Shown here in pieces: positions 16,035 through 55,885 of a DNA stretch of 64,000 bases; the first letter of the stretch is position 1; every line of letters starts with the position of its first letter. The position numbers and the translations under genes are program-made. Below the pieces are notes generated by a model. That model was not told where the DNA came from, searched no databases, and worked only from the letters and a program-made list of their open reading frames with translations. Origin of the DNA: Salipaludibacillus neizhouensis (GTDB lineage Bacteria; Bacillota; Bacilli; Bacillales; Salisediminibacteriaceae); assembly GCF_002886185.1 (NCBI RefSeq), contig NZ_KZ614146.1, positions 2,464,930 through 2,528,929 on the forward strand, read 5' to 3'.

Positions 16035-16275
16035 CATTTAGAATAGACACCCTATTTCATAAGGTGTCTATAAGACGACGTTGCCCGCATATGCGGTTAT
16101 CTTCCAGGTTTCACGAACCCGCCAATGACAGGTGGGTGCTTGCAAAAATATCTTCAGCTTCCTTTCATTTTCAATAAGGCATGCTGTTAACATTTTAATA
16201 TAAAGCTCCCAAAGTGAATAAATGTTCGGCTCGAATTATACTTGAAGTTCACCAACAAAGCAGGCATCTTTATTT
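16035..16275 (-). ncRNA. ssrS: 6S RNA (SsrS)
   Basis: Regulatory RNA that mimics an open promoter and traps sigma-A RNA polymerase. On the minus strand, the order of conserved blocks agrees with 6S RNA: GAGCCGAACATTT on the 5' side of the central bubble, GGGAGC, the apical AGCATGCCTT...AAAGGAAGCTG hairpin, then CAAGCACCCACCTG and GGCGGGTTCGTG on the 3' side. E. coli 6S has the matching GAGCCGATATTT, GAGCATGCTC and CACCTTG...GGGTTCAAGG. The ends pair (AAGATG with CGTCTT; GTTG with CAAC). A sigma-A promoter lies upstream and a hairpin (16043-16071) ends the transcript. No protein-coding ORF fits this gap. Identification is by eye, without covariance search. Confidence 0.85.
16043..16071 (-). 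terminator. terminator hairpin of 6S RNA
   Basis: ATAGACACC / GGTGTCTAT stem on the minus strand, followed by a weak T-rich tail (TCTAAATGTTTTC). Read-through into pbpA is possible because the tail is poor. Confidence 0.65.
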
Positions 16276-19071: not shown

Positions 19072-19164
19072 TGGAGGAGGAAGAGGGATTCGAACCCCCG
19101 CGGGATTTGACTCCCCTGTCGGTTTTCAAGACCGATCCCTTCAGCCAAACTTGGGTATTCCTCC
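19072..19164 (-). tRNA. tRNA-Ser (UGA)
   Basis: 93 nt with a long variable arm; anticodon loop CTTGAAA gives UGA. Acceptor stem GGAGGAA / TTCCTCC, T-loop GGTTCGAATCC, CCA encoded. The discriminator base reads U. Confidence 0.96.
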
Positions 19165-19174
19165 TAGAAAAATA

Positions 19175-19251
19175 TGGTGGACCCTGTAGGACTCGAACCT
19201 ACGACCGGACGGTTATGAGCCGTCTGCTCTAACCAACTGAGCTAAGGGTCC
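19175..19251 (-). tRNA. tRNA-Ile2 (CAU, lysidine-modified)
   Basis: 77 nt, acceptor GGACCCT / AGGGTCC, CCA encoded. Anticodon loop CTCATAA gives CAU. The loop and acceptor match tRNA-Ile2 (compare E. coli ileX) rather than elongator Met, so TilS would convert it to read AUA. Confidence 0.88.
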
Positions 19252-19275
19252 AAACTGGATAAGTCTATAAAATCA

Positions 19276-19352
19276 TGGTAGCGGCGGAGGGGATCGAACC
19301 CCCGACCTCACGGGTATGAACCGTACGCTCTAGCCAGCTGAGCTACACCGCC
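19276..19352 (-). tRNA. tRNA-Met (CAU, elongator)
   Basis: 77 nt, acceptor GGCGGTG / CGCCGCT, CCA encoded, anticodon loop TTCATAC gives CAU. Lacks the initiator-type GGG/CCC anticodon-stem pairs, so elongator. Confidence 0.93.
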
Positions 19353-22483: not shown

Positions 22484-22819
22484 ATGATAGGAGAGCGTGT
22501 TAAAAAATACCGGAAAGAAGCCGGATTATCTATGACTGAATTAGCTGATAGAGCAAGTGTTGCAAAGTCATATTTAAGTGCATTAGAAAGAAATATACAA
22601 ACAAATCCATCTATTCAGTTTCTAGAAAAAATAGCTACCGTCTTACATATTGATATGAATGTGTTATTGAAAGATGAATCAGATTTAGACAATATACATA
22701 CCAGTAATCTTGATAATGAATGGCAAGCTTTAGTTAGAGAAGCGATGGATTCAGGTGTGTCAAAAGACGAGTTTAAAGAGTTTCTTGAATTTAACAAATG
22801 GAAAATAAATAAAAAATAA
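22484..22819 (+). CDS. sinR: biofilm master regulator SinR
   Basis: DNA-binding repressor of matrix and biofilm genes in B. subtilis. 111 aa: N-terminal XRE-type HTH (MIGERVKKYRKEAG...SYLSALERNIQTNPSIQFLEK) and a C-terminal SinI-binding helical hook (LDNEWQALVREAMDSGVSKDEF). Both halves align with B. subtilis SinR along the full length. AAGGGGG precedes the ATG. Unlike B. subtilis, no sinI sits immediately upstream; the SinI homologue lies 0.6 kb downstream on the opposite strand. Confidence 0.93.
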   Translation: MIGERVKKYRKEAGLSMTELADRASVAKSYLSALERNIQTNPSIQFLEKIATVLHIDMNVLLKDESDLDNIHTSNLDNEWQALVREAMDSGVSKDEFKEFLEFNKWKINKK

Positions 22820-22821
22820 TG

Positions 22822-22848
22822 AAAGTCCTTCGCGGAGCTTTTTATTTT
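22822..22848 (+). terminator. sinR terminator
   Basis: Imperfect stem AAG(U)CC / GGAGCUU with a UUCG loop, followed by TTTTTATTTT. Confidence 0.6.
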
Positions 22849-22940
22849 GCCCTTAAGTAAATTACTAAAATGACGTTATTTATAAAGTTATATAATGTAC
22901 ATTATACAGAATGTAAAATAAAATATAAAATCTCATAATT

Positions 22941-22967
22941 CGTTATAATTACTATATAACGAACAGT
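22941..22967 (+). promoter_or_regulatory. inverted repeat and shared operator-like motif upstream of second SinR-like gene
   Basis: CGTTATA and TATAACG form a perfect inverted repeat spaced by 7 bases; the right half continues into TATATAACGAACAGT, identical to the element upstream of sinR. Confidence 0.45.
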
Positions 22968-23079
22968 TATCGTCTTTTATATAGTCCATCTCACATTTAC
23001 TTCCTTTTTCATTTTTCCTATATTTAGGTTTGTGCGTTATAATGAACTAAGTGCAATATACATTCAAGGAGGAATGAAA

Positions 23080-23316
23080 GTGATTAGTGAAATGATCAAG
23101 CGACGCCGTAAAGAAAAAGGGTATACGTTATCAGAATTATCTAGAAAGACTGGAGTATCTAAATCTTATTTAAGCTATTTAGAACGTAATATGAAGAAAA
23201 ACCCTTCAATTGATGTAGTAAAGCGTATATTCTTAACGTTAGATTTACCTCTTAGTCCTTTATTGCATCACGAGAGAATTGTGGAAGATTTACCAAAACA
23301 ACAGCAACAATCATAA
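23080..23316 (+). CDS. short SinR-like HTH repressor (HTH domain only)
   Basis: 78 aa, XRE-family helix-turn-helix closest to SinR/SlrR (MIKRRRKEKGYTLSELSRKTGVSKSYLSYLERNMKKNPS). The SinI-interacting C-terminal helices of SinR are missing; the protein ends in HERIVEDLPKQQQQS. It may bind the same operators as SinR but escape SinI, or act by dimerising through the HTH alone; this is inference. AAGGAGG lies 7 bases before the GTG at 23080; upstream ATGs overlap the ribosome binding site. Confidence 0.8.
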   Translation: MISEMIKRRRKEKGYTLSELSRKTGVSKSYLSYLERNMKKNPSIDVVKRIFLTLDLPLSPLLHHERIVEDLPKQQQQS

Positions 23317-23354
23317 AAAACACATGATTATAACCTTAAACCCATCAAATTTCT

Positions 23355-23383
23355 GTAGCACCAGGTATTTCCAAAGGTGCTAC
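23355..23383. terminator. stem-loop between the HTH gene and sinI
   Basis: Perfect 8-bp stem gtagcacc / ggtgctac with a 13-base loop, placed between two convergent genes; T-tail is weak on both strands. Confidence 0.5.
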
Positions 23384-23422
23384 GGACTTATTCTATACAA
23401 TAAAACAGATATTATGCAGAAC

Positions 23423-23572
23423 TTAAATTTTGTCCTGACGCAATTCACTATTTTTGGTTATCGTTATTAATAAAAACTCCCTTACCTCTTCTGTTTTCAA
23501 ACCTAAATTTTTTGCTTGTAGTATTAGATCTGTCCATTCTTCATCTAGCTGATACCGGTATTGTTTTTCCAT
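23423..23572 (-). CDS. sinI: SinI-like antirepressor
   Basis: 49-aa protein, missed by a 60-codon ORF limit. Residues 9-36 (LDEEWTDLILQAKNLGLKTE...EVREFLL) align with the B. subtilis SinI core (LDQEWVELMVEAKEANISPEE...IRKYLLLNK) and with the C-terminal hook of SinR in this window. SinI sequesters SinR by forming a heterodimer through this region, relieving repression of matrix genes. AGGAGGAG lies 12 bases before the ATG, longer than usual. Transcribed opposite to sinR and preceded by a c-di-GMP riboswitch. Confidence 0.85.
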   Translation of the reverse strand: MEKQYRYQLDEEWTDLILQAKNLGLKTEEVREFLLITITKNSELRQDKI

Positions 23573-23579
23573 CCTAATA

Positions 23580-23609
23580 GTTAACTCCTCCTAACGGGAC
23601 TTTTTAACC
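23580..23609 (-). promoter_or_regulatory. likely expression platform of the sinI riboswitch (SD sequestration)
   Basis: GTTAA (23608-23604) can pair with TTAAC (23584-23580), holding the sinI Shine-Dalgarno AGGAGGAG (23592-23585) in or next to the stem. No intrinsic terminator lies between aptamer and sinI, so control is probably translational. ON or OFF response cannot be read from sequence. Confidence 0.5.
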
Positions 23610-23611
23610 GA

Positions 23612-23701
23612 CTAGACAGTTCAGCAATCATAGGAAATGCCAATACCCCTTAGACCCGAAACTTTGCGTCTCTATTTTTCAATAGATTTGCCATTTACTA
23701 G
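23612..23701 (-). promoter_or_regulatory. cyclic-di-GMP-I (GEMM-I) riboswitch aptamer upstream of sinI
   Basis: Minus strand, 5' to 3': GGCAAA (23692-23687), a perfect P2 helix CTATT-GAAA-AATAG with the GAAA tetraloop, GACGCAAAG (23670-23662), CGGGTCTAAGG (to 23648), a variable P3 loop, then CTATGATTGCTGAACTG. The ends pair through CTAG / CTAG. This is the order and spacing of the class I c-di-GMP aptamer, for example V. cholerae Vc2 (GGGCAAACC...GAAA...GGGACGCAAAG...GGCCUAA). It ends about 40 bases before the sinI start. Confidence 0.88.
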
Positions 23702-23975
23702 AATATGTATTTATTCATTTAAATTTGCAAAACCACAACTAATCACACCCTATATTTTGTAATATATAGCGAAGAGTATCTAAAGTATAGACTATATAAT
23801 TAGAAAATTTTAGGGGAATTTGTCATGTGCTTCAAAACACATCTTTTTACTCACTTTTTTTCATATTACTGAGAAAGAATCTAATTATAAGTTACTCTTT
23901 CAAAGATTTGCTTATGTGAATTTCTTTAGAATTTACTATAAATTGATATCCAAATTACGAAAACCAAGTAAATTA

Positions 23976-24005
23976 AAACGCTTGGATATAATTTATCCAA
24001 GCGTT
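23976..24005 (-). terminator. nfeD terminator
   Basis: Perfect 13-bp stem aaacgcttggata / tatccaagcgttt, minus-strand T-rich tail. The 23702-23975 stretch to its left holds no supported gene. Confidence 0.85.
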
Positions 24006-24058
24006 TCAATAGTATTGGCATTTAATAAGAAATTTTCTGTGCTGATTTCCTAGTTACT

Positions 24059-24694
24059 TTACTTATTCTCTGGCGCTATTAAAATTCTCGTCCCATCAAC
24101 AGAAATTATCTTCACACTTACCTCTTCATTAATCCAAAGATTATCCGAAGTGGCGCTGAATAACTTACCGTCAATCTCCACAGTCCCTGTTGGTCGAAAA
24201 GGCGTTTTGGTTACTCCCATTTTTCCAATTAACTCATAATAATCCTCGTTCATTGAATTGTATCCATTTTCACTAGATAATTTGTCTTTTAACGTCATCT
24301 TTTCCCACATTTTTCTTGGTCGGAACATCTTAGTAAATAAATATGAACTAGGTGCTGCTATAATCAATGCCAATCCAACCAAAACACCATATACCAAATC
24401 CGGTGCCGGGAGAGCCAATCCTAATACCATTAGAAGTATTCCTATAAAAGCTATCGTACCATCTCCGGTCACCTTACCATCAAAAATAACAAGACATAAT
24501 CCTATCAGGTAAAGTATGACAACCCAAAATCCCTCATCTATTGAGGTTAGGTGGTAGGAGAAATACATTGTCATAATTGCAATACCTAACAACCCGAATA
24601 ATCCTTTTGTCCTCACCATTATTTCGCCGAATATTAGCAACGTCGCTAGGAAAATAACTAAGAACCCGATGGAAGCTTGGTCTAAAAATTCCAT
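24059..24694 (-). CDS. NfeD family membrane protein
   Basis: 212 aa, three or four membrane helices followed by a C-terminal OB-fold beta-barrel (GKMGVTKTPFRPTGTVEIDGKLFSATSD...). NfeD proteins in Bacillus (YuaF, YqeZ) work with flotillin-like proteins in membrane lipid domains; no flotillin gene is adjacent here. AGGAGG precedes ATG 24694 by 7 bases. Stand-alone gene with its own terminator. Confidence 0.85.
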   Translation of the reverse strand: MEFLDQASIGFLVIFLATLLIFGEIMVRTKGLFGLLGIAIMTMYFSYHLTSIDEGFWVVILYLIGLCLVIFDGKVTGDGTIAFIGILLMVLGLALPAPDLVYGVLVGLALIIAAPSSYLFTKMFRPRKMWEKMTLKDKLSSENGYNSMNEDYYELIGKMGVTKTPFRPTGTVEIDGKLFSATSDNLWINEEVSVKIISVDGTRILIAPENK

Positions 24695-55653: not shown

Positions 55654-55885
55654 AACTCTCATCCCTATGCCCAGACTTTGGACATAGGGACGAGAGTTAC
55701 CCGCGGTTCCACCCTAATTGCATATAAGAATATGCCTCTTTCTAAAGTATGCTCCGGAACGCCTTCTTTACTGTCATTGACGCTTAGCTTTCACCGGCCT
55801 AAGCTCGCTTTTGTCAAGATTAAGTAAGTACTATTTTCCTTCTTCGCATTTATAAGTATAATAAAAAAATTTCTTTTGCTTCTAA
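55654..55885 (-). promoter_or_regulatory. glycine T-box riboswitch of glyQS
   Basis: Minus strand. Stem I with AGCGAGCTTAGG...AAAGCTAAGC (the AGCGA-type element), the T-box AATTAGGGTGGAACCGCGGG (55719-55700), and an attenuator hairpin AACTCTC...CCCTATG / CATAGGG...GAGAGTT (55698-55654) with TTTTTTGG. A GGC triplet in AGAAGGCG is the likely glycine specifier (inference). Uncharged tRNA-Gly would favour antitermination. Confidence 0.92.

Follow-up and report, generated by a model that had tools for sequence, protein, structure and literature searches.

SinI, a small antirepressor protein, inactivates the biofilm repressor SinR, and together the two proteins form the textbook biofilm decision switch of Bacillus subtilis. 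In this organism, Spo0A controls sinI, which precedes sinR on the same strand; to our knowledge, c-di-GMP has not been found to act there directly on either SinI or SinR. The locus described here resembles that of B. subtilis in that a gene for a SinI-domain antirepressor adjoins one for a SinR-type repressor, but the two genes converge instead of following one another on the same strand. It lies in a 64,000-nucleotide stretch of the Salipaludibacillus neizhouensis genome (contig NZ_KZ614146.1), referred to below as the window, and the sinI-type gene is preceded by a class I c-di-GMP (c-di-GMP-I) riboswitch aptamer.

Several described riboswitches invite comparison. Vc2 of Vibrio cholerae combines a class I aptamer with translational control in which helix P1 is the key element (PMC9262584), much as is proposed here for the window. 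However, Vc2 is an OFF switch (PMC9262584), whereas closure of P1 in leaders of the window type is predicted to free the Shine-Dalgarno (SD) sequence. Within the Bacillaceae, c-di-GMP-I aptamers are also known from the Bacillus cereus group (Bc1, Bc2 and others). Their reported targets include genes for a collagen adhesion protein and a methyl-accepting chemotaxis protein, among others (PMC7793685 and others), and Bc1 is described as having a long expression platform with two terminators (PMC11218506). Among the matches listed for this group, the available text does not name sinI as a riboswitch target.

The first-pass annotation of the window knew of no described case of a c-di-GMP riboswitch controlling SinI. 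The pair has in fact been listed before: a 2015 paper tabulates (c-di-GMP)-sinI for B. methanolicus MGA3 (BMMGA3_08510, Table 4), a putative riboswitch that was identified by comparing mapped 5'-UTRs with Rfam and that lies in the 5'-UTR of sinI (PMC4342826), much as the window aptamer precedes its sinI-type gene. The entry is an annotation in one organism, and the available text of the paper gives no platform, direction, survey or assay for it (PMC4342826). A c-di-GMP-I riboswitch has also been described on the opposite strand beside a SinR homologue in Paenibacillus sp. FSL P4, again as in the window, and antisense action on the regulator was proposed (PMC9943018); the window differs in having a sense sinI between the two. 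No experimental test or survey of riboswitch-sinI pairs was found in the literature searched, from which subscription papers were mostly absent. What is new here is that the pairing is common in relatives and comes with a class-specific leader, the single B. methanolicus annotation being already known.

The aptamer and the sinI-type gene of the window

Both strands of the window were searched with the Rfam covariance model RF01051. The minus strand gave a full-length match (model positions 1–87) at 23612–23702 with 72.1 bits, above the gathering threshold of 35 bits (E = 3.5e-12), which bears out the minus-strand class I aptamer that the first-pass annotation had read from the letters and proposed to check with this model. 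The genome as a whole contains eight RF01051 matches, the window copy included, and all of them are above the cut-off. The motifs on which the earlier reading was based are present for the most part: the window aptamer has the GAAA-capped P2 and the GACGCAAAG core, along with G20, a base retained in 69/69 of the sinI-type aptamers collected below. Only the last motif, at the 3' end, falls short, as it reads CTGTCTAG where CTGCCTAG is usual and thereby places a U at the C92 position (we take the labels C92 and G20 to follow Vc2 numbering). The P1 helix is formed by a 5' strand CUAG (23698–23701, minus strand) and a 3' strand UCUAG (23612–23616, minus strand), with a perfect CUAG:CUAG pairing between the former and 23612–23615 in a register picked by eye. 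U23616 is the base at the C92 position, and the 3' strand also begins a predicted hairpin that encloses the SD sequence (see below). When the window aptamer was folded alone by energy, the consensus fold was missed (z 0.08).

C92 of the class I aptamer pairs with a guanine of the ligand, and the window aptamer lacks this C, which otherwise marks c-di-GMP-I riboswitches. A U at this position (23616, minus strand, in the window) was found in 2/69 sinI aptamers and in 0/52 non-sinI aptamers. The second U92 aptamer comes from another genus (locus L033 of genome G014), and the remaining 119 of the 121 aptamers in both sets have C. G20 and C92 are both reported to be important, with mutants at either position binding c-di-GMP more weakly (PMC9049102), and when both are changed together (G20A/C92U) the aptamer binds c-di-AMP (PMC9049102, PMC7288161). 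The window copy may differ from its relatives in c-di-GMP affinity or ligand preference, for example as a less sensitive sensor. A stronger version of this idea is that the aptamer has drifted, with U92 abolishing its response to c-di-GMP or shifting its preference to another dinucleotide (e.g. cGAMP), and that a second copy in the genome (C1:3401008–3401102) does the sensing of c-di-GMP. Although the rarity of U92 and the behavior of the G20 and C92 mutants speak for such drift, we consider it unlikely, albeit the most serious of the alternatives, given that, U92 aside, the aptamer reaches 72.1 bits with the Rfam model and 86.8 bits with our own model (in which it is itself a seed), that P1 is perfect and G20 is kept, and that U92 recurs in another genus. 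Because its score is far over the threshold, the window aptamer is assigned by sequence and structure to the c-di-GMP-I class despite U92.

The gene behind the aptamer was originally described as a SinI-like gene of 49 codons at a distance of about 40 bases, and both parts of this description held. The distance from the aptamer end to the ATG is 39 nt, and the 49-aa product of the reading frame at 23423–23572 (minus strand) scores 45.8 bits with the SinI domain model PF08671, for which the cut-off is 31.4, and matches the solved SinI chain 1b0n_B at E = 3.3e-6, with no HTH family above its cut-off. Its score with the NCBIfam sinI equivalog model NF046031 is 34.9 bits, below the 80-bit cut-off. 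The product is best regarded as a SinI-domain family member, and its NF046031 score does not support the status of a B. subtilis-type equivalog. An SD sequence, AGGAGGA (23586–23592, minus strand), with a predicted duplex with the anti-SD, lies 13 nt before the ATG.

Converging with sinI, the plus strand carries a sinR-like gene (22484–22819) that encodes a 111-aa protein with an HTH (HTH_3) and a SinI-type domain (PF08671, 48.1 bits). The protein matches SinR chain 1b0n_A over residues 1–110 with E = 1.2e-37, and a candidate cognate SinR for the window SinI is present in tail-to-tail orientation. A second convergent gene (23077–23316, plus strand) adjoins sinR and encodes a SinR/SlrR-type protein in which an HTH (HTH_3, 6.9e-15) was the only part recognized; PF08671 is absent from the 15 families that this protein matched at E up to 1. 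Such an HTH-only protein, with no SinI-type domain detected, would perhaps bind SinR sites yet escape titration by SinI. On the other side of the leader, a long inverted repeat read from the sequence (23972–24010, minus strand) lies 3' of an nfeD-like gene and is a possible terminator setting sinI apart from this upstream gene; a terminator scan of 23300–24100 listed none. No exact match to TTCGACA, which we take to be the 0A box of Spo0A, was found within 4 kb of the window sinI. Across the genome there are six SinI-domain matches, five of them above the cut-off, 16 GGDEF domains above the cut-off, and no match to PF12389, presumably the TasA/CalY family.

Recurrence of the riboswitch-sinI pair

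The occurrence of the two elements was surveyed in 60 genomes, including that of the window and, outside its own family, one genome per family for 25 families. RF01051 was found in 55 genomes and PF08671 in 43. At least one adjacent same-strand pair was present in 38 of the 41 genomes with both elements, covering 16 genera and 10 families, such that the search in relatives suggested by the first-pass annotation turned up the same arrangement well beyond the window. For the 25 out-of-family genomes, the corresponding numbers were 12 with both elements and 9 with a pair. The 14 control genomes, which include B. subtilis, gave no match to RF01051. Aptamer and sinI could still be chance neighbours with no regulation between them, and promoter-like sites around the window leader show no excess (4 vs 4.1 in shuffles). 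However, the same-strand pairing in 38/41 genomes and the location of the B. methanolicus aptamer within the mapped 5'-UTR of sinI (PMC4342826) make this reading negligible.

The survey loci were stretches around apparently standalone SinI ORFs among the matches listed, with the exception of L109, which was chosen by its riboswitch. One hundred such loci were searched with a covariance model of our own built from 20 RF01051 matches, 14 of these seeds being already known SinI neighbours. The search found 69 aptamers, each with a same-strand SinI ORF and an SD match behind it. Among the matches listed, an aptamer is present at 69 of the approximately 102 distinct standalone SinI ORFs, and none was found at the other 33. 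The total is 105 after removal of three duplicated loci and a fragment of SinR and addition of L031, whose long open frame had kept it out of the count. Set against the 281 RF01051 matches across the 60 genomes, the pairs suggest that SinI would be the target of roughly one riboswitch in four, an estimate for which the two lists were not matched singly. The window genome has a second riboswitch-SinI pair with another SinI-domain ORF (C1:3400868–3401102), three of its five standalone SinI ORFs are without a detected aptamer, and up to four pairs per genome were found elsewhere in the survey. In the alignment of the 69 aptamers, which was fitted to the model, 92.9% of cells in P1, P2 and P3 are paired and 21/26 pairs show both-side changes. 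For P1 alone, 76.1% of cells are paired with both-side changes at 3/4 pairs (n = 69), as compared with 65.9% and 4/4 pairs in the non-sinI control set described below.

Additional loci were collected from named genomes using a DNA pattern that required the aptamer core and YYGCCT, followed downstream by GARTGG. Because the pattern itself demanded the aptamer core and the downstream GARTGG, this search speaks to the spread of the pair and not to its frequency. The pattern matched 117 stretches, of which 80 were taken as loci. An aptamer was detected in 80/80 of these and a SinI ORF at the match in 79/80 (69 by HMM and 10 by scoring; the exception is L170). The named loci include members of Salipaludibacillus, Evansella, Cytobacillus, Mesobacillus, Neobacillus and Peribacillus, and one locus each from Paenibacillus, Gorillibacterium and Alicyclobacillus. 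A riboswitch-sinI leader was also seen in a record of Chryseobacterium sp. ISL-80 (JAGGQZ010000017.1, L167), in which the segment from the P1 strand to the start is identical to that of Bacillus sp. ISL-45 (L192); this record is probably a mislabelled or contaminated genome. At the level of sequence, the aptamer-sinI pair is certain and its recurrence in relatives is well supported.

The neighbourhood of SinR-type genes raises the question of whether the riboswitch works antisense on these convergent genes and not on sinI, as proposed for the Paenibacillus c-di-GMP-I riboswitch that lies opposite a SinR homologue (PMC9943018). Of the 57 named stretches with a SinR-type ORF, 42 have it on the opposite strand; 21/69 survey loci contain 14 opposite-strand and 8 same-strand SinR-type ORFs, and those of the window (22484–23316) are opposite. 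Despite this, antisense action is very improbable in our estimation, since a SinI ORF with an SD sequence follows 15–44 nt behind every one of the 69 aptamers. The Paenibacillus case would be most simply accounted for by a short, unannotated sinI ORF, and its antisense riboswitch may itself represent the riboswitch-sinI arrangement. If the pairing is common, other riboswitches reported as antisense beside sinR may also be ordinary switches of unannotated sinI genes.

Leader features and predicted pairing with the Shine-Dalgarno sequence

The 69 sinI leaders were compared with 52 control c-di-GMP-I aptamers from 51 loci away from the listed SinI matches, in which no SinI-domain frame was detected at E up to 10. 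The distance from the aptamer end to the start codon in sinI leaders has a median of 30 nt (n = 69), and an SD match of −6.3 to −12.6 kcal/mol is present in 69/69. The base that follows the conserved CC of the ligand site is T in 66/69 sinI aptamers (53/55 with the model seeds left out) as opposed to 4/52 controls. The resulting CCU is complementary to the AGG of the SD sequence. Because the P1 partner of this T is neither A nor G in 13/66 cases, the T is probably retained for a role besides P1.

Pairing between CCU and SD was predicted by folding 135 distinct leaders (65 from the survey and 70 from named genomes; L170 and L225 were not annotatable). The mean pairing probability was 0.708, compared with 0.540 for spacer-shuffled leaders (p = 6e-11), and 99/135 leaders had a probability above 0.5 versus 75 for the spacer-shuffled means. 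The leaders were likewise more stable than the shuffled ones (MFE −7.65 vs −4.90). Split by source, pairing was predicted for 36/65 survey leaders (p = 0.03) and 63/70 named leaders (p = 1.7e-10). The leaders are not phylogenetically independent, and these p-values overstate independence because many of the named leaders come from close relatives. The continuous CCU:SD helix in 98/135 leaders has 3–11 pairs (median 7) of varied types, although this variety is not an independent covariation test because the count covers only the paired positions of each predicted fold.

The controls that are informative about the P1 strand are chimeras with non-sinI aptamers, base swaps and spacer shuffles. Changing the last three aptamer bases to non-sinI bases lowered the predicted pairing of the P1 strand with the SD sequence from 0.215 to 0.101 (p = 1e-5). 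With its own P1 strand present, predicted SD-start accessibility dropped by more than 0.1 in 25/69 leaders and rose in 2, while with a non-sinI strand it dropped in 15 and rose in 4. No difference in SD-start accessibility was seen between own and shuffled own P1 strands (p = 0.28), and swapping sinI aptamers among sinI leaders left SD accessibility at the native value (0.485 vs 0.484). The latter chimeras are uninformative because the P1 strand and the SD sequence are both conserved. Across the survey set, folding lends moderate support to SD sequestration. The 3' strand of P3 was also considered as an anti-SD and rejected, as pairing of the SD sequence with the aptamer body was lower in native than in chimeric RNAs (0.083 vs 0.111, p = 0.0006).

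The folds fall into two architectures, one with CCU directly on the SD sequence (98/135 leaders) and the other with a hairpin that encloses the SD sequence and closes near the AUG. The latter is predicted for the window and several leaders of its genus (L030, L031, L041 and L055, against L054, L043, L163 and L156). In the window, the predicted ligand-free hairpin spans 23573–23616 (minus strand): UCUAGU of the P1 strand pairs with AUUAGG just before the AUG, an inner stem is formed by GGUUAA and UUAACU, and the SD sequence is held inside, with a probability of CCU:SD pairing near zero. The hairpin has an MFE of −12 kcal/mol (23567–23622), a z-score of −0.73 and 42/200 shuffles that are as stable; the segment MFE is −10.9 versus a spacer-shuffled mean of −6.5. 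Predicted SD-start accessibility is 0.29 with the P1 strand free and 0.60 with the strand removed, and takes values of 0.41 with a non-sinI strand and 0.43 with a shuffled one. When aptamer and leader were folded together, the best free fold was 16 kcal/mol below the aptamer-formed fold, a difference that would have to be made up by ligand, tertiary contacts and co-transcriptional folding. Taken alone, the window leader gives weak folding support for a platform.

A hairpin resembling a terminator separates aptamer and start codon in 1/69 sinI leaders and follows 30/52 control aptamers, a comparison over unequal lengths because 200 nt were scanned in the controls. This bears on the possibility that c-di-GMP lowers SinI, with the riboswitch turning sinI OFF or working at the level of transcription or mRNA stability. 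Both signs are known among class I switches; Cd1 turns transcription OFF, and Vc2 is an OFF switch of translation with a key P1 (PMC9262584). Terminator-like hairpins are also frequent behind the non-sinI aptamers of the surveyed genomes. Nevertheless, the near absence of such hairpins before sinI, the prediction that the competitor of P1 is the SD sequence or start region itself, which favours ON, and an unpublished microarray result from B. thuringiensis in which sinI rose at high c-di-GMP by a route not stated (PMC7793685) together render this explanation improbable.

Proposed translational control of SinI

The computed elements of the system are the aptamer, the SinI and SinR genes, their recurrent pairing with the riboswitch and the class-specific leader. 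The best-supported mechanism built on them, to which we assign a probability of roughly 0.7, is that a class I c-di-GMP riboswitch governs a SinI-type antirepressor as a translational ON switch. From these elements we infer ligand binding, translational control and its ON direction, as well as the binding of SinI to SinR and the downstream regulon. In the ligand-free state, the 3' strand of P1 (C92-C93, or U92-C93 in the window) would base-pair either at the ribosome binding site or just ahead of the start codon, leaving SinI poorly translated. Bound c-di-GMP would keep this strand in P1 and the ligand pocket, freeing the SD sequence for synthesis of SinI, which would bind and titrate SinR and thereby lift SinR repression. 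C92 and C93 would be common to ligand-bound P1 and the SD helix, which favours the ON direction. The window would represent a variant in which the P1 strand is predicted to pair beside the AUG and not with the SD sequence itself. It is plausible that the riboswitch tunes the SinI:SinR ratio, as first suggested for this locus; an effect on matrix production, also suggested then, would be more speculative in a genome that gave no match to PF12389.

A broader and more tentative proposal, which we put at somewhat below even odds, is that riboswitch control of SinI is the rule in Bacillales genomes having both elements. There would often be several paralogues, each under a separate translational ON switch whose ligand-holding aptamer bases would, in the free state, cover the ribosome binding site; sinI of B. 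subtilis, driven by Spo0A, would be the exception and the U92 copy of the window a retuned version. If the arrangement is common in relatives, c-di-GMP and SinI/SinR would be wired together through a single RNA step, and the B. subtilis circuit would not be representative.

Other c-di-GMP-I riboswitches of the window genome are found upstream of GGDEF genes (L002, L004), and one (L008) lies, as judged by eye, upstream of a gene for a chemotaxis-type protein that is followed by one for a CheY-like regulator. Their positions before GGDEF and chemotaxis-type genes suggest that c-di-GMP feeds back on its own turnover and controls motility. The window also contains a 6S RNA (16078–16269), a T-box leader (55683–55853) and three tRNAs (19075–19352), all on the minus strand.
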